Positions 19,678 through 38,699 of a DNA stretch of 64,000 bases are shown one piece after another. The DNA is from Collinsella aerofaciens (GTDB lineage: Bacteria > Actinomycetota > Coriobacteriia > Coriobacteriales > Coriobacteriaceae): NCBI RefSeq assembly GCF_963360655.1, contig NZ_OY725717.1, positions 310,001 to 374,000 of the forward strand, in the 5' to 3' direction. Below the pieces are notes generated by a model that saw only the letters and a program-made list of their open reading frames with translations, did not search any database and had not been told where the DNA came from. Positions within the stretch are counted from its first letter, which is position 1. Each line of letters opens with the position of its first letter. A program made the translations under genes and the position numbers.

Positions 19678-19715
19678 TTTGCCGAGAGACCCGGCGATCC
19701 AGTCCCATTCGCATG

Positions 19716-19752
19716 AAAAACGGGCGGCTCGGATGTTGGTCCGAACCGCCCG
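19716..19752 (-). terminator. Terminator of the cobalamin-regulated operon
   Basis: On the minus strand a 12-bp stem (19741-19752 with 19721-19732, one G-T pair) is followed by five T. It lies 24 bp after the stop of the DUF4430 gene at 19776. Confidence 0.9.
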
Positions 19753-19775
19753 TCTGGCGCGCTATGTCGAGGCCT

Positions 19776-20687
19776 CTAGTCTGTAACGTAATACCAGACT
19801 ACGTTGTCGCCGTTTGAGAGAACGTAGTTACTACAGGCCGTCATGGGCGTTGTGCCGTTGACGGAATACATCCAGCCGCTCGTGCCGCCGTACTGTTTCT
19901 CGGCCAAACCACCAATCGCAGAAACATACGTGCCGTACGATGAGCCGTGTGCGTTGACAGAAAGGCCCAGCGCGCACAGGGCATCGTAAACGGTAGCGCC
20001 TTCGTTAAAGGTAAAGGTGCCGCCAGAGGACACAGGATTGCCCACAGCGCTCGATGTGACCGAAACCGTCACCGTAACGTAGCTGGACTCCTGTGAGCCG
20101 CCCTGTCCGCCCGAGGGAGCACTTCCGCCATAGGAGCTGGAGGCTCCATCAGACGACTGACCGCCTCCCGAAGAAGCACCGCCAGACACATTGGAAGTAT
20201 CACCGGCTCCCGTATTTTGGGCAGCGGATTTATCGCCAGACTTCTTGCCGCCCCGGTCCTCGGACTTCTTGCTATCCGAGTTTTTGTCCGATTCCTTGTT
20301 TGAAGACTCGGAATCGTCCTTGGCGTCGTTCGAACCCTTGGGCTCGTCTTTTGCATCATTCGAAGATTTGGAATCCTTGGAACTAGCCTCGCCCGAAGCG
20401 GCAGACGAGCCAGACCCCTTGGTGTCCTTGGCGACGACGCTCTCCCCCGTCACGGTCTGAACGATCCAGTCAATGGACCAGGCGCCGCTCTCGGAAGGAT
20501 GAACGAAGCCCAGCGAGACGACGATCAGAATGGTGCACGCGGCAGCAAGAACGCCAAGGAGCGCCTTGCGACGAGAGGCGGACGCCGCCAAAGCGGCGCC
20601 CTGTTGCTTTGCATCGTCGAACTGAATGAACGAGGAATCTGGTTGCTTGGGGTCAGCGTCCTTGGATTTATTGGACACAACCCTCAC
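19776..20687 (-). CDS. Membrane-anchored DUF4430 (transcobalamin-like) protein
   Basis: 303 residues. A cytoplasmic N-terminus of about 40 residues precedes one transmembrane segment (LLGVLAAACTILIVVSLGF). Next comes a roughly 120-residue linker rich in Ser, Lys, Asp and Gly that should span the cell wall, and a C-terminal DUF4430 domain (about 205-303) with the typical ending SGWMYSVNGTTP...NGDNVVWYYVTD. The start (GTG 20687) abuts the stop of the 1264-residue gene, so the pair is co-translated. It shares the upstream cobalamin riboswitch. DUF4430 resembles the C-terminal domain of transcobalamin and intrinsic factor, so corrinoid binding at the surface is the likely role (inference). Confidence 0.88.
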   Translation of the reverse strand: MRVVSNKSKDADPKQPDSSFIQFDDAKQQGAALAASASRRKALLGVLAAACTILIVVSLGFVHPSESGAWSIDWIVQTVTGESVVAKDTKGSGSSAASGEASSKDSKSSNDAKDEPKGSNDAKDDSESSNKESDKNSDSKKSEDRGGKKSGDKSAAQNTGAGDTSNVSGGASSGGGQSSDGASSSYGGSAPSGGQGGSQESSYVTVTVSVTSSAVGNPVSSGGTFTFNEGATVYDALCALGLSVNAHGSSYGTYVSAIGGLAEKQYGGTSGWMYSVNGTTPMTACSNYVLSNGDNVVWYYVTD

Positions 20688-23600
20688 CTACCGACGTTTG
20701 GTGAACACGAACACGCCGACGATGGCGAGGCCAATCACGCCGGCGGCGATGCCAACGATGGCGAGCGGATTGGTGCCAGTCTCCTGCTCGGAAGCACTAG
20801 AGGACTTCTTAGCAGTGGTCGTGGAAACAGCACCCGTATCGGACTTGGAATCGGACTTCTTGTCGGACTTGCCGTCCTTCCTGTCAGACTTCTTGTCAGA
20901 CTTCTTCTCGTCCTTCTTATCGGACTTATCGGAGTCCTTCTTGCTGGGCTTGTTGTCCTTGGTCTCGGTCTTGGTCGACACCGTCGTCTTGGTCATCGGC
21001 TTATGACCCGGAGCGACAGCGCCGCCAGCCTGCTGGCCCTTCGTGCCGGAGCCGGAACCCGTGCCCGTGCCAGCGCCAGCACCGGAACCGTTGCCAGCGC
21101 CACCATTGCCGCCATTGGAGCCAGAACCGCCATTGCCGCCAGGGTTAACAGCATTCTTGGTCCACTTGGCATACAGCGTCAGATCGGCCGTCACCGGCGT
21201 ACTGAAGTCATACGCCTGCGCGCAAGTCTCATCGGTATACCAACCGCCGAAAGTGTAGCCATCGCGCGTCGGATCGGCTGGCTTGACCAGCTTGCCATCG
21301 GCCGTAGCAACAAACTTAGTATTGCAAGCAGACCCGCCGTTGGAATTAAAGACAACCGTCCAAGACTCAACGGCCCCAAGCTTGAACAGCGTGCCCGAGT
21401 CATTGATGTAGTACAGGTTGCCAGATGCATCGGCAATGACCGGAGAGTCACAGTGCTGGTAATGGCCAGCCGCATCATAAATCTGCGTCGCCTCTGCATC
21501 ACCGAGCGTATAGCGATACACGCCACCACCAGCAGAGTAGTTGACGTAATCCTTGCTATCCGCGCTGTTAACGGTGAAGTACACATAGGTCTTGCCACCC
21601 TGAACACTCACCAGCGGAGTAGCAGCAATACCGTTAAATCCGGCCGGCAGTTCTTTACCGTCAGCAGCGGTGACCATCGTGGTCTTACCGGTCTTCAGAT
21701 TATAGAGAGCCAGAGCAGAGCCAGTAGCCGTCTGTCCGCCGACAATCAAGTTTTCGCCAGCCACCGCCGGTGCGCTCATGTTATTAGTAAGACCCAGGTC
21801 GACCGTCTTCTGCTCGCTCAGTACGCCCTTCGCCGAAAGCGAAATCACATGGAGCTTTCCATCGTGCGTCATCTGATAGAAGGTGGAACCATTGGACGGA
21901 TCGGCGACACAGTCGGCGTTCGCGAGAGCGCCGAGCTTCATGGTCGAAACGACATCGCCCGTCGTCTTATCAATGCACTTAAGCGTGCCCGCGCTCGTAG
22001 GAACGATGGCATACTTATCCGTCAAAGCCGCACCAGTCCAGTAATAACCCTCGGAAGCGTCAATGTTCTGCCAAGAAACTTCGCCCGTGGCAATCTTAAT
22101 GCGCATAAAGGAGCCGTTGCCGTAGGTCGCGTTGTAATTCTCGTCATACGAAATATCGACCGTACCAACATAGACGTACTCGCCGTCCGAAACGACGGTG
22201 CAGGAGCTCTGCGTCAAGTCCGTCAAACCGGGCGTCAGCCACTTGCAGATCAGCTTGTCTGCAGTAATCGCCTGGACCGCACCGCCGTTGAGCGGAACGA
22301 TGATAAGGCCATTGGTGTAGATCGGACGAGAGGTATAACTCACCTTGGAGGCAAGCGGCGCAGAGGCAACCTTTTTGCCCGTGGACGAATCGATCTTAAT
22401 GAGCTCGTTCTCGGTCGCGATGTACACAAAGCCGTTAGCGATGACAGGCTCGCTGCAGTTGGCATACTGCTGACCAGACTCGGCCTTCCAATCGAAGGCC
22501 CACTTAAGACCGGCGGCCTGCGCAGGCGTCTTGGCATCCGTTACGGTCGAACCGTTGCCACTGTTGCCGTAGCCGGCCCACTCGGCATCCCAATCAGGAG
22601 TCGTCGCGCTCGGGTCCACGACAATCTTGTCGGGATCGGGCATGGCCGAATCGTCGGTGGTATAGGCAAGCGTAACCTTATCGCCGCTCTTGAGCGTAAT
22701 CTGATTGGCGCAGAGTAAGGAGGGCTCTCCGTTGATATACAGGTGCCAATATTTATTGGTCGCAGCATCCCAGGCATACGGCTTGTGATCGAACGGCGAG
22801 TTGATGGAATTGAGGAACCAGTACTCACCACTCTGGGAGCCGTTGTACGTAACGCCCTTGGCCTTCAGGACCGTCTCAATAAGGTTCTGAGCCGTAGAGC
22901 CCTCGGGCAGGGAAACATTGCTTGCCGAGCCCCAGCGAGTATTGTTGCCGTTGACATCGGGACCGATAACATCGACAGACCCAAGAACCTGGCCAGGAAG
23001 GGCATCGGCGTCAGCACCATACATAAAGGTGACGGCATCGCCCTCTTGGAGCTCATAGGCACCGGCGCCAACGTCGGCGAACTTGCCATTTACATAGAAG
23101 CGCCAATAGCTATTAGTCGCAGCATCCCAGCCATAGGACTTACTATCGAACGGCGAAGTAATGCCGTTGAGGAACCAGCCCCAAGACGATTCGCCAGCAT
23201 CGAGAGTAAGACCGGTCTGCTCAAGGAGATCCTTGGCAGTAGAGCCCGCCTTGAGACTCGTCTGGCCCGTCGAAGCCCAAACCTGCTGCTTGCCGTCCTT
23301 GTCCTTACCAAGGACCTGAACGGAAGCATGGACGGAATCGGACGGCAACTTATCGCCCCAGCCACCGTAGAACCACGTAACGGTATCGCCAGCATGAATG
23401 GTGACATTGTCTGCCGTGTAGTCGCTCGACTTGCCGTTGATGAACAGCTGCCAATAGGTCGAATAATCTTGGGGCGTACCCAGCTCAACACCGTTGTACT
23501 TAAGGCTCAGAATGAAGGAGCCAGCAGCAACGGCGTCGATGTCATTCGCCTCAAGCGCGACCTTCGTAAGGTCAAGTGCGCTCGAACCGGACGTCACCAC

Positions 23601-24482
23601 ATACTGCGCGTTATCGACCCAAGTCTGAGTCTTGCCCTGGGCATCGCGACCAATGACGGTCACATTTGCGGCAACCTGGTCCTTAACGACAGGGGACGAG
23701 CTACCAGCCGTATAGGCAAACTCAACCTTCTGCCCCTGGGTGAGCTTAACGCTGCTCGCGCCAACCGAGGAAGACGCACCGTCGACGAACAGCTGCCAGA
23801 AGGCATAAGTCGTCGGATCGAAGGCAAGCGTACGGCCATCGCTCGGGGATGTGATGCTTTTGAGGTAGAAACCGTATGCCGTGTTCGGATCGTAGTCTGC
23901 CTTGAAGCCCGTCTTCTGCTGCAGCTTAACGAAGGCATCCGCAGCCGTCGCGCCCTCGTCGAGCTTGAGCTGCGTGGGTGCCACCCAGGTCTGAGCCTTG
24001 CCGTCGGCATCGGTGCCGATAATCGAGAACGAGACCTCGACTTGCTTCTTGGCGACATCGCCGGTTTCTGTCGGGTTCTCTGTCTGAACGGCAGCCGCGG
24101 CGGCAGATCCTGCTTGGCCAGCGGATGCCGCTGAAGACTGCTCGCTCGCGGCAGGGCTCTCCCCCGTCGCCGAGCCTTCGTCGCCAGTTGCTGCCTTTGA
24201 TGCGGCGGCACTAGCTGCAGGCGCGCTCCCAGAATCCGAAACCTCGGCGCCGCTCTGCTCAGCGGCACCGCCCGCAAGCGCTGCGTCCTCGCCCGGCGTC
24301 GTAGCCTGAGCCACAGCCTCGGCAATGCCCTCGGCGCCCTCGGCCCACAGCTGAGCCGGCGTGGTGCTGAAGGCCATCGCGAAGGCCAGGAATGCCACCA
24401 GGCAGCGCTTTGCCACGCCGCGCGCGATTACGCCACGGCGACGAAGCGAGGCACGCTGGCACTCGTCCTCAAACATATCCAT
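20688..24482 (-). CDS. Large surface protein: four DUF4430 domains, PQQ-type propeller, InlB repeat
   Basis: 1264 residues. ATG 24482 lies 5 nt after TAGGAG. A basic region and hydrophobic core (CLVAFLAFAMAFSTTPAQLWA, 27-47) form a long signal peptide, and an Ala/Ser/Glu linker runs to about 140. Four DUF4430-like units follow (about 147-262, 270-380, 385-495, 499-612), each ending with a Y/W-W-x-x-x-[IV]-[ND]-G element and then GDxVTxxY. A PQQ-binding-like beta-propeller spans about 625-1045, then an InlB/Flg_new repeat (DGYTFGGWYTDETC), a Gly-rich and a Lys/Asp/Ser-rich linker, and a C-terminal membrane helix ending KRR. No clear LPXTG. The cobalamin riboswitch upstream supports a role in B12 capture. 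Confidence 0.9.
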   Translation of the reverse strand: MDMFEDECQRASLRRRGVIARGVAKRCLVAFLAFAMAFSTTPAQLWAEGAEGIAEAVAQATTPGEDAALAGGAAEQSGAEVSDSGSAPAASAAASKAATGDEGSATGESPAASEQSSAASAGQAGSAAAAAVQTENPTETGDVAKKQVEVSFSIIGTDADGKAQTWVAPTQLKLDEGATAADAFVKLQQKTGFKADYDPNTAYGFYLKSITSPSDGRTLAFDPTTYAFWQLFVDGASSSVGASSVKLTQGQKVEFAYTAGSSSPVVKDQVAANVTVIGRDAQGKTQTWVDNAQYVVTSGSSALDLTKVALEANDIDAVAAGSFILSLKYNGVELGTPQDYSTYWQLFINGKSSDYTADNVTIHAGDTVTWFYGGWGDKLPSDSVHASVQVLGKDKDGKQQVWASTGQTSLKAGSTAKDLLEQTGLTLDAGESSWGWFLNGITSPFDSKSYGWDAATNSYWRFYVNGKFADVGAGAYELQEGDAVTFMYGADADALPGQVLGSVDVIGPDVNGNNTRWGSASNVSLPEGSTAQNLIETVLKAKGVTYNGSQSGEYWFLNSINSPFDHKPYAWDAATNKYWHLYINGEPSLLCANQITLKSGDKVTLAYTTDDSAMPDPDKIVVDPSATTPDWDAEWAGYGNSGNGSTVTDAKTPAQAAGLKWAFDWKAESGQQYANCSEPVIANGFVYIATENELIKIDSSTGKKVASAPLASKVSYTSRPIYTNGLIIVPLNGGAVQAITADKLICKWLTPGLTDLTQSSCTVVSDGEYVYVGTVDISYDENYNATYGNGSFMRIKIATGEVSWQNIDASEGYYWTGAALTDKYAIVPTSAGTLKCIDKTTGDVVSTMKLGALANADCVADPSNGSTFYQMTHDGKLHVISLSAKGVLSEQKTVDLGLTNNMSAPAVAGENLIVGGQTATGSALALYNLKTGKTTMVTAADGKELPAGFNGIAATPLVSVQGGKTYVYFTVNSADSKDYVNYSAGGGVYRYTLGDAEATQIYDAAGHYQHCDSPVIADASGNLYYINDSGTLFKLGAVESWTVVFNSNGGSACNTKFVATADGKLVKPADPTRDGYTFGGWYTDETCAQAYDFSTPVTADLTLYAKWTKNAVNPGGNGGSGSNGGNGGAGNGSGAGAGTGTGSGSGTKGQQAGGAVAPGHKPMTKTTVSTKTETKDNKPSKKDSDKSDKKDEKKSDKKSDRKDGKSDKKSDSKSDTGAVSTTTAKKSSSASEQETGTNPLAIVGIAAGVIGLAIVGVFVFTKRR

Positions 24483-24627
24483 TTGTCTCCTATTGTCTGT
24501 ACTTGGAGCGTTGCCTTGAAGCTGCCCCACGTCATCGCGCATGTTGCGCCCGAGTTCCCCCATCGGGGTCCCCCTTCCCTCCAGAGCCCTATGCACACCG
24601 GCGGCATACGCCGCAGCCGCATGCAAG

Positions 24628-24797
24628 ATGGGAGGCGATCCGACTTAACCTTAACGGCTCAGGCGCGCCGTCCGATCTGCGACGCGAACATCCCGAGCCA
24701 AGAGGAATTACGGTTACTGGTACAGCCGGGGACTTGCACCCCGATTCCCCCAAACGCGCAGGAAAACCGCGCATTCGTGCGTCTCCGCACCACCATC
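24628..24797 (-). promoter_or_regulatory. Cobalamin (B12) riboswitch
   Basis: The minus strand contains the conserved cobalamin core GGGGGAATCGGGGTGCAAG, then TCCCCGGCTGTACC and AGTAACCGTAA, matching the family pattern GGGAA-GGTG-A-TCC-GCTG-CC-GC-ACTGTA. The 3' B12-box-like segment AAGTCGGATCGCCTCCC lies at 24631-24647. Outer arms GATGG and CCATC (24793-24797 with 24628-24632) can close P1. It sits about 145 nt upstream of the 1264-residue surface protein. The element is expected to repress expression when B12 is abundant. Confidence 0.88.
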
Positions 24798-24807
24798 TAG
24801 GCCATCG

Positions 24808-24836
24808 ATTAAAACCGTCAATATGCTATCACGCAA
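24808..24836 (-). promoter_or_regulatory. Candidate promoter of the riboswitch transcript
   Basis: TTGCGT (-35, 24831-24836) and TTTAAT (-10, 24808-24813) are separated by 17 bp on the minus strand. Initiation here would start the RNA just before the riboswitch P1 stem. An alternative TTGACG...TAGATG pair lies inside and would truncate P1. Confidence 0.4.
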
Positions 24837-29013: not shown

Positions 29014-29089
29014 CCTTTCTTGAAAGGGAGGGGACACCGCCTAGAATTCGTCGTTGGAGTAATGAAGGTGACGAATGGAAGGAAAGGCG

Positions 29090-30409
29090 ATGCCCCAAGA
29101 AGAGAGTGTACTGCGCCTCGGCCGCGACGAGGCCCTCGAGGCGGCGAGGCTTTGGCAGGAGTGCGGCGACGCGCGCGAGTTCGCGTGCAGGGTGCTGGGC
29201 GGCGTGATGAACGCGCTGATGGACTCCGAGGCCCAGCAGATGTGCGGCGCGGGCCGCAACGAGCGCAGCGACGGCAGGGAGAACAGCCGCAACGGCTACC
29301 GCCCCAGGTCGCTCAAGACCGCCGTGGGCGACGTGGAGCTCGAGATACCCAAGCTCAGGCACGGCACCTACTACCCCGAGGGCATGCTCGCGCGATGGTC
29401 GCGCGTCGACACCTCGGTGGCCGCCATCGTGCAGGAGATGTACGTGTGCGGCGTGTCCACCCGCAAGGTCGAGCGCGTGGCGTCCAAGCTGGGCATATCC
29501 TCGCTGTCGAGCTCGGAGGTCTCGAGCCTCTGCTCCGACCTCGACGCCGAGGTGGCGGAGTTCCGCCGCCGCGACCTGTCGGGCACGCCGTGCTGCTACC
29601 TGTGGCTCGACGCCACCTACATGAGCTGCAGGGTCGGCTCGTCGGTCGTCTCGCAGGGCGTCGTGACCGCGATCGGGCTGGGCGCCGACGGGCGCAAGCA
29701 CTTCCTGGGCTGCGACGTGGTCGACACCGAGAGCGAGGACTCCTGGGCGGCGTTCCTCGGCGGGCTGCGCGAGCGCGGGCTGGCCGGCGTTCGCCTCGTG
29801 GTCTCCGACAGCCACGCCGGGCTCGTGGCCGCCGTCTCGCGCCTGTTCCAGGGCTGCGCCTGGCAGCGCTGCGTGACGCACCTGCAGCGCAACCTCCAGA
29901 GCGCCTGCTCGGGCAGGCCCGAGGACTCCAAGGCGGCCGTCAGGGACCTCGTGCACGCCGCGGTCTACCAGGACGACCCCGACCTCGCGCGCTGCGTGTG
30001 GGCCGAGGCGGCGCCCTGGGTGGCGTCGGTGTCCGCCAGGGCCGGCGAGGTCTTCGAGCAGGCCGAGGACTCCGCGCTGGCGTTCACGGCCTTCCCCAGG
30101 GCGCACTGGGCCAAGCTCCGCACCAACAACGTCCAGGAGCGCGCCAACCGCGAGATCAAGCGCCGCTACAGGGTCGTGCAGTCCTTCCCCTCGAGGGAGT
30201 CGATGCTGCGCCTGACGTGCGCGAGCCTCATGGAGACCGAGGGGCAGTGGTCCCAGCAGCGCATGTTCTCCGAGGCCTCGGCCGCCGAGGGCTTCGCCGA
30301 GCCCGCGGACAGGCCGGCCCCGACAGAGGGGAGGCGCCGCGCGCTCGGGCGGCGCGCCAGGGAGATAGTGGACGAGATAGTCGAGAAGCACGGCCTCAAG
30401 AAGGAGTAA
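29090..30409 (+). CDS. IS256-family (mutator-type) transposase
   Basis: A 439-residue DDE transposase. Start ATG 29090 is 3-9 bases after AAGGAAAGG; an in-frame ATG at 29075 would add five residues. Catalytic residues are visible as Asp in YLWLDATYMS, Asp in LVVSDSHAGL and Glu in NNVQERANREIKRR, with the family C-x2-H region CVTHLQRNL between them. The C-terminus is basic and helical. Intact, so the element may still be mobile. Confidence 0.95.
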   Translation: MPQEESVLRLGRDEALEAARLWQECGDAREFACRVLGGVMNALMDSEAQQMCGAGRNERSDGRENSRNGYRPRSLKTAVGDVELEIPKLRHGTYYPEGMLARWSRVDTSVAAIVQEMYVCGVSTRKVERVASKLGISSLSSSEVSSLCSDLDAEVAEFRRRDLSGTPCCYLWLDATYMSCRVGSSVVSQGVVTAIGLGADGRKHFLGCDVVDTESEDSWAAFLGGLRERGLAGVRLVVSDSHAGLVAAVSRLFQGCAWQRCVTHLQRNLQSACSGRPEDSKAAVRDLVHAAVYQDDPDLARCVWAEAAPWVASVSARAGEVFEQAEDSALAFTAFPRAHWAKLRTNNVQERANREIKRRYRVVQSFPSRESMLRLTCASLMETEGQWSQQRMFSEASAAEGFAEPADRPAPTEGRRRALGRRAREIVDEIVEKHGLKKE

Positions 30410-38274: not shown

Positions 38275-38699
38275 CAGCACGTTGCGACCGAAGCCACCGC
38301 AGCCGTCGCAGGCGCACTCGCGGTTGCGACGCACGCTACGAAACAATACCGGTCATGGACGCCGGCAACGACATTCTAGCCGTGGCTGGCGAGCGTGACC
38401 TGACAGGCAAAGACGCGGCCTTCGTCTGATGTGGGTCCATTGGCTGCCACAGAAAAGGGCCGGTTGCAGCCGGCCCTTTAGACGATAATACCTGCGTTGC
38501 CCGCGCTTCCGAAGTGTGACTAGCTGAGGAGCGGGTTCCGCGGCACAACCTGATTTTACCCAGTGAGGAGGCTCTTTTGCAGCCGCTCCACTGTTTATTT
38601 ACATCTGGCACCCTCAAACAATCAGACGGCAGCCCGCACTCCTGAGAGCTGCCCCGCACCCCCGGCCATCACCTTACGGCAACAACCGGTGCTACTCCC
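38275..38699. other. Non-coding convergent gap with hairpins
   Basis: 425 bp between convergent genes. It contains one clear terminator (38454-38479) and an imperfect hairpin around 38556-38592. No gene, tRNA or recognised structured RNA was found. Confidence 0.5.
38454..38479. terminator. Bidirectional terminator
   Basis: A 10-bp perfect stem AAAGGGCCGG/CCGGCCCTTT with a 6-nt loop. It gives TTTT on the minus strand and TTT on the plus strand. It probably serves both the DUF1016 gene and the convergent zinc-ribbon gene. Confidence 0.75.

Follow-up and report, generated by a model that had tools for sequence, protein, structure and literature searches.

What does a monoderm gut bacterium gain from a pair of exported proteins that carry transcobalamin-like domains and stand behind a cobalamin riboswitch? 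We addressed this question for a locus in a 64,000-nucleotide (nt) stretch of Collinsella aerofaciens DNA (contig NZ_OY725717.1, positions 310,001 to 374,000; hereafter the window, to which all coordinates refer unless a contig or locus is named). On its minus strand, a riboswitch leader, gene A, gene B, and a terminator follow each other in the order of transcription (19714-24829). Our favored answer is that A and B would form the surface-capture part of corrinoid uptake, made when corrinoid is scarce, and that this B12-repressed capture would feed an energy-coupling factor (ECF) importer of the CbrT type, with a probability of about 0.7 for the whole model. Surface capture of corrinoid as such appears highly probable, and hand-over to the ECF importer is likely, if less so than capture. 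A sequence-only reading of the window had proposed surface corrinoid capture with a shorter anchored partner, and the riboswitch association in the family and in Clostridia, the domain fold, and the linkage to ECF genes lend this proposal good support.

The riboswitch leader and the transcription unit

The transcription unit comprises the following features:

24483-24829, minus strand: conserved 5' leader with aptamer and expression platform (13-sequence alignment, 96% identical)
24662-24750, minus strand: core of a cobalamin (AdoCbl-II-type) riboswitch aptamer (RF01689, 32.9 bits, E 6.5e-6 genome-wide)
20688-24482, minus strand: gene A, 1264 amino acids (aa), exported and C-terminally anchored (open frame, Pfam)
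19776-20687, minus strand: gene B, 303 aa, with an N-terminal membrane anchor, a low-complexity linker, and a C-terminal DUF4430 domain
19714-19755, minus strand: intrinsic terminator of the A-B operon, a 16-pair hairpin with a trailing U run (-35.2 kcal/mol, z -5.35)

The aptamer core (GGGGTGCAAGTCCCCGGCTGTACCAGTAACCGTAA), an 89-nt match located in the 5' leader, falls under the Rfam gathering score of 36.5, yet its genome-wide E-value is low, it was the only significant cobalamin-type match in a whole-genome scan, and the gathering score was passed at orthologous positions in G045, G040, G030, G058, G003, and G060. The runner-up in the genome, a candidate for RF00174 (which shares an Rfam clan with RF01689), reached 15 bits and lies 5' of a CbiK gene. 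AdoCbl-II matches were identified in 51 of 64 Coriobacteriaceae genomes, one in each, and all 51 shared their strand with a DUF4430 gene and lay immediately 5' of it (47 were placed by script within limits of -200 to 600 nt of the gene, the match in G044 fell 2 nt outside owing to a frame over-extended upstream, and the positions in G031, G060, and G064 were read from the coordinates of gene and riboswitch hits). Four Clostridia loci with a homologous gene carried RF00174 at 75-89 bits (E 2e-16 to 2e-20). A strict core motif preceded 43 of the 75 intact loci and occurred 9 times in the remaining 3.08 Mb; the 43 are a lower bound, as the scan misses divergent switches, including those of Clostridia. 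We regard the riboswitch that had been proposed upstream of gene A as genuine, the comparative evidence across relatives being decisive.

The consensus fold of the leader included two base pairs altered on both sides among the 13 genomes. In this fold, the predicted partner of CGCCTCCC (24631-24638) is GGAGGGAA (24576-24583), a Shine-Dalgarno (SD)-like GGAGGG run that precedes an in-frame ATG (24564), and such a pairing suggests translational control. Folded as a single sequence, the leader was not more stable than its shuffles (z -0.87). The ATG at 24564, with its own SD-like run, is a possible alternative start of gene A, 27 codons 5' of 24482, and the stretch 24483-24564 was kept without frame shifts across the 13 genomes; gene A may thus encode 1291 aa if it starts at 24564, or 1264 aa if it starts at 24482.

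The start codon of gene B directly follows the stop codon of gene A, and a single strong hairpin with its U run closes the unit. Frames and Pfam matches agreed with the earlier description of the 2 proteins, including the 4 DUF4430 units, propeller, InlB repeat, and anchor of gene A. A whole-genome PF14478 search found 5 DUF4430 units, all of them in genes A and B.

The DUF4430 domains and the propeller

Within the 2 proteins, we identified the following parts:

20499-20567, minus strand: N-terminal transmembrane anchor of gene B
19785-20000, minus strand: DUF4430 domain of gene B, predicted to have the transcobalamin beta-domain fold (PF14478, 71 bits)
23709-23954, minus strand: DUF4430 unit 1 of gene A (PF14478 over the curated cut-off; beta-grasp in the model)
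23367-23588, minus strand: DUF4430 unit 2 of gene A (PF14478 over the curated cut-off)
23016-23243, minus strand: DUF4430 unit 3 of gene A (PF14478 over the curated cut-off)
22659-22901, minus strand: DUF4430 unit 4 of gene A (PF14478 over the curated cut-off)
21369-22526, minus strand: PQQ/BamB-type beta-propeller of gene A, eight-bladed in the AlphaFold2 model (predicted local distance difference test, pLDDT, mostly 90-97 for this block)
21165-21359, minus strand: Flg_new/List_Bact (InlB-type) repeat of gene A (PF09479, E 9e-22; internalin B matches in PDB)
20691-20771, minus strand: C-terminal hydrophobic anchor of gene A with the basic tail NPLAIVGIAAGVIGLAIVGVFVFTKRR

Both membrane anchors were read from the sequence, as was the signal sequence of gene A, which is without a lipobox. 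The N-terminal anchor of gene B is replaced by a lipobox in 2 relatives (L124 and L135). The PF14478 scores of the 5 units ranged from 43 to 71 bits, with a curated cut-off of 23.8.

Structure prediction gave the gene B domain a pLDDT of 93.7, and at E < 0.001 Foldseek returned 19 solved structures, all of them transcobalamin, intrinsic factor, haptocorrin, or the bacterial DUF4430 protein 3u7z, with the next match at 0.03. Z scores from VIA-align were 13.6-15.1 for the B12 carriers and 3u7z, against 7.7 for the next beta-grasp protein outside this group, and 100 residues of 5no0 were aligned at 1.8 A with a Z of 14.2. This search of solved structures was made with the gene B domain rather than with single gene A units. 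A mark of the transcobalamin-like clade is a beta-hairpin inserted behind the helix, with a hydrophobic residue stacking on the base. In the gene B model, strands 49-54 and 57-63 follow the helix, and residue 56, a candidate for such a residue, is Y, F, M, or L in 45 of 50 ungapped relatives. By its predicted structure, the DUF4430 domain of gene B has the beta-domain fold of transcobalamin, intrinsic factor, and haptocorrin, and the likeness of DUF4430 to the C-terminal domain of the first 2, noted in the earlier reading, was borne out at a Z of about 14. Kinship with transcobalamin by sequence alone was rejected: phmmer with gene B found no match among PDB sequences, and the DUF4430 family profile reached only 3u7z in PDB (E 0.001), without reaching transcobalamin, so that the link rests on structure. 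The isolated beta-domain of human transcobalamin (TC-beta) binds cobalamin while hardly changing its structure (PMC5599065), and a lone DUF4430-type domain could therefore, in principle, capture ligand.

The AlphaFold2 model of gene A (residues 140-1112, pLDDT 83.6) comprised 4 beta-grasp domains and an eight-bladed propeller, and was all-beta save for the short beta-grasp helices and 2 brief helical turns; Pfam scans of A and B found no alpha/alpha toroid half. The Pfam match of the propeller was weak, and its structural neighbors by VIA Z were YxaL (39.9), the designed eight-bladed Cake8 (37.4), and BamB (about 34-35). The blade count of 8 was taken from the strand pattern of the model, and Cake8 and Tako8 were aligned over 314-317 of about 320 residues. 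The propeller had been likened to BtuG of Bacteroides, but kinship with BtuG was rejected, since BtuG2 is seven-bladed (PMC6143338) and the model here is eight-bladed and BamB/YxaL-like; that BtuG was missing from the listed structural matches proves nothing by itself. Binding of B12 by the propeller of gene A is no more than a possibility.

At E<=0.001, 58 of the 65 family genomes had an orthologue of gene A, often a partial one, and the A-B pair is widespread in Coriobacteriia and occurs also in some Clostridia. The fusion of DUF4430 units to a propeller had been called unusual; instead, about 70 loci in Coriobacteriia have it, as do some Clostridia, a Clostridium case was already noted in 2007 (Burroughs et al., PMC1796856), and BtuG1 offers a comparison. 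Gene A varied in length from about 630 to 2900 aa in relatives, through immunoglobulin (Ig)-like stalk domains and 1-5 DUF4430 units, and a minimal version in Cuneatibacter caecimuris consisted of a 676-aa and a 262-aa protein together with ECF genes.

A toroid-like region was observed in sister Collinsella (L167:4299-9117 in G035:C19, also G034:C13 and G037:C2), where it belongs to a riboswitch-linked protein of 1558 aa (L167:4441-9117). It had no PDB sequence match and no match in the window's genome (G000), and with that a transcobalamin alpha-like partner of this kind was rejected for the window's genome.

The CbrT-type importer and the alternatives

In about 30 loci outside Collinsella, genes for EcfT, a double EcfA (EcfAA'), and an S component directly follow A-B; these loci belong to Slackia, Olsenella, Tractidigestivibacter, Gordonibacter, Atopobium, Eggerthellaceae, Cuneatibacter, and another Clostridia genome. 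In sister Collinsella that lack gene A, a single riboswitch is followed by genes for a short lipoprotein with DUF4430, for EcfT, and for a fusion of EcfA, EcfA', and S; gene B is 39% identical to this lipoprotein (hhalign E 2e-25). The importer is also encoded in the window's genome, at about 1,112,205-1,115,624 of contig C1, where it is 57% identical to the riboswitch-linked version. With the S-component family profile, the sole strong match was ECF-CbrT (6fnp, E 6e-15), and the genome's own S component (C1:1112208-1112882) by itself matched 6fnp_A at 4.1e-6. ECF-CbrT (6FNP) is a proven transporter of cobalamin and cobinamide (PMC5997447).

Two further arrangements were observed in relatives. 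G048 has the propeller pair with its riboswitch on C13 and a DUF4430 gene by an ECF operon on C15, and the 2 arrangements are thus not mutually exclusive. In G052, a flavin mononucleotide (FMN) riboswitch (L052:5418-5611, minus strand) lies between gene B and an EcfA/EcfT pair, which makes it probable that the ECF genes there serve riboflavin and are unrelated. For predicted cobalamin ECF transporters, SEED reportedly lists an extra lipoprotein component, possibly a protein of the gene B type.

In the mechanism that we propose, the cobalamin riboswitch would lower the expression of A and B when cobalamin is plentiful, as its co-location with the 2 genes suggests. Gene A, anchored at its C-terminus, would display an array of transcobalamin-beta-like domains and the propeller, which would bind corrinoid at the cell wall or outside it. 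Gene B, held at the membrane by its N-terminus on a flexible linker, would take the corrinoid from A by its single transcobalamin-beta-like domain and would pass it to the S component of the CbrT-type importer (EcfT-EcfAA'-S), the last step being proposed because A-B-ECF operons are conserved in relatives. The complete relay, from a wall-spanning beta array and propeller through a tethered beta domain to the CbrT S component without any alpha half, is tentative, at slightly under even odds.

Several observations weigh against the proposed capture and delivery, and some of them bear on alternatives to it. The ECF genes of the window's genome are unlinked to A-B, and no riboswitch was detected there; moreover, the genome encodes a BtuFCD-like set (C1:79185-83118), consisting of a Peripla_BP_2 lipoprotein, a FecCD permease with BtuC as its best match, and an ATPase with a corrinoid ATPase as its best match, which adjoins the CbiK gene and the weak riboswitch-like match of 15 bits. 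A and B might deliver corrinoid to this ABC importer instead of the ECF importer, and G059, which has gene A and BtuF with no S component, fits such a route. We consider it improbable, as a BtuF homologue was found in only 21 of the 45 genomes with gene A, against 44 of 45 for the ECF S component (the S component without BtuF in 24), and none of the fetched loci joins A-B to BtuFCD, whereas about 30 join it to ECF genes. The list of 45 genomes was drawn up by hand from a homology search, and the BtuF query was the homologue of the window's genome. The earlier suggestion of btuFCD-type genes as partner holds insofar as such genes are present elsewhere in the genome, with the ECF importer being the better candidate for the partner itself.

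The stretch around this set (C1:60000-83118 in G000; L039/L040) is devoted to cobalamin biosynthesis, with CbiK, CbiF/CobM-like, and CbiA-like genes, and then the BtuF-like lipoprotein of 523 aa; a DUF4430-like N-terminal part in the latter found no support. In favor of the capture model is a need for B12. The genome encodes one protein with a B12-binding domain (PF02310), which resembles methionine synthase (MetH), and cultured C. aerofaciens reportedly requires B12 despite its cbi genes (PMC6593275).

The absence of an alpha half from A and B and the wide occurrence of DUF4430 weigh against the model. Transcobalamin requires its alpha-domain for full sub-picomolar affinity. DUF4430 is not specific to B12 everywhere: it is present in Lactococcus lactis, and in 13 of 13 distant Actinomycetota loci a DUF4430 gene stands beside an EcfT-like gene without a cobalamin riboswitch (no match over the gathering score in roughly 1.5 kb; EcfT was assigned by inspecting the sequence). 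DUF4430 may be a general ECF accessory. The ligand could be something other than a corrinoid (a different tetrapyrrole or vitamin, or a lower-ligand base), in which case the riboswitch would do no more than report a related shortage; the reviewers of PMC1796856 cautioned that B12 was possibly not the sole ligand of the clade. The riboswitch association is, however, complete in the family and strong in Clostridia, and the S component matches CbrT, so that we regard a ligand outside the corrinoids as quite unlikely. In these distant loci (L195-L199, L201-L205, L207, L209, and L210), the DUF4430 proteins were mostly preceded by a repeat-rich protein of surface type with VERPMYF repeats.

The propeller, finally, resembles scaffolds (BamB, YxaL) and not a known B12 binder. 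Together with the InlB-type repeat, and with the Ig-like stalks and the wide range of lengths in relatives, this would suit adhesins or wall proteins directed to host or glycan, for which B12 would be a cue of gut location alone. Such a role is very improbable, since a short DUF4430 protein and ECF genes travel with gene A, and cobalamin riboswitches generally control genes for B12 synthesis or transport or for B12-independent isoenzymes. Corrinoid capture with delivery to the CbrT-type importer is the reading that we favor.

Elsewhere in the window, a Collinsella-1 structured RNA was identified at 38457-38653 on the minus strand (221.9 bits), for which Rfam gives no function. On the plus strand, 29075-30409 holds an intact frame resembling a mutator-type (IS256-like) transposase, as judged from its translation alone.

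Relation to known systems and meaning for Collinsella

A bacterial clade of transcobalamin-like SLBB domains was described by Burroughs et al. in 2007 (PMC1796856), with a predicted role in scavenging B12 or its precursors. Its members may be fused to toroid, Ig-like, FIVAR, or propeller domains, and their operons include another exported paralogue and CbiO/CbiQ-like genes. The locus shares with that clade the beta-grasp of the transcobalamin C-terminal type, the propeller fusion, the second exported copy, and the importer genes, and differs from the clade as presented there in that the Collinsella A-B pair stands apart from its importer and gene A has 4 units. It is a member of the kind predicted in 2007 and not a new kind. 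New are the riboswitch linkage in the family and in Clostridia, the CbrT identity of the partner, the structural match, and the split of capture and importer in Collinsella; in the accessible part of the 2007 article, riboswitch control, CbrT-type S components, and Coriobacteriia are not described. In the literature searched, papers that name DUF4430 do not treat bacterial B12 uptake, the 2007 paper using another name, and we found no experimental test of the predicted capture systems in the literature.

The importer likewise has a close counterpart, as its S component, whether linked or elsewhere in the genome, is a homologue of CbrT; in L. delbrueckii, however, CbrT and other S components use one ECF module in common, whereas T, AA', and S form a dedicated set here, together with surface-capture proteins. 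With BtuG and BtuH of Bacteroides, the locus shares riboswitch-linked surface capture of B12 (PMC6143338, PMC8941943). BtuG1 combines a propeller with a BtuH domain that binds B12, and Ig-like stalks are part of BtuH2; in Eubacterium siraeum, one BtuH homologue is encoded close to an ECF-like transporter of cobamides (PMC8941943). The domains themselves differ, DUF4430 being a beta-grasp and the binding domain of BtuH having been reported with low homology to any known structure (PMC8941943). Further, BtuG is an outer-membrane lipoprotein that acts with BtuB, whereas gene A has a C-terminal anchor and no lipobox and belongs to a monoderm host; no BtuB-like gene was adjacent to A-B in the listed stretch. 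Animal transcobalamin, intrinsic factor, and haptocorrin share the fold of their C-terminal beta-domain with gene B but have an alpha/alpha toroid half that A and B are without, and the bacterial domains are anchored and arrayed.

The capture of B12 outside the membrane by monoderm gut bacteria is poorly known, and Rodionov et al. (2019, PMC6593275) regard it as an open problem to identify the B12 transporters encoded in gut genomes. The prediction of 2007 becomes directly testable here, since the genes are named, a riboswitch is at hand, the partner importer has a solved homologue, and relatives offer minimal versions. If corrinoid capture by A and B is true, it would give DUF4430 a function in this group and would form part of the competition of Collinsella with Bacteroides and the host for B12. 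It would also bear on the origin of animal transcobalamin, and the relay, if true, would be a bacterial counterpart, and a possible source, of the beta half found in B12 carriers of animals.

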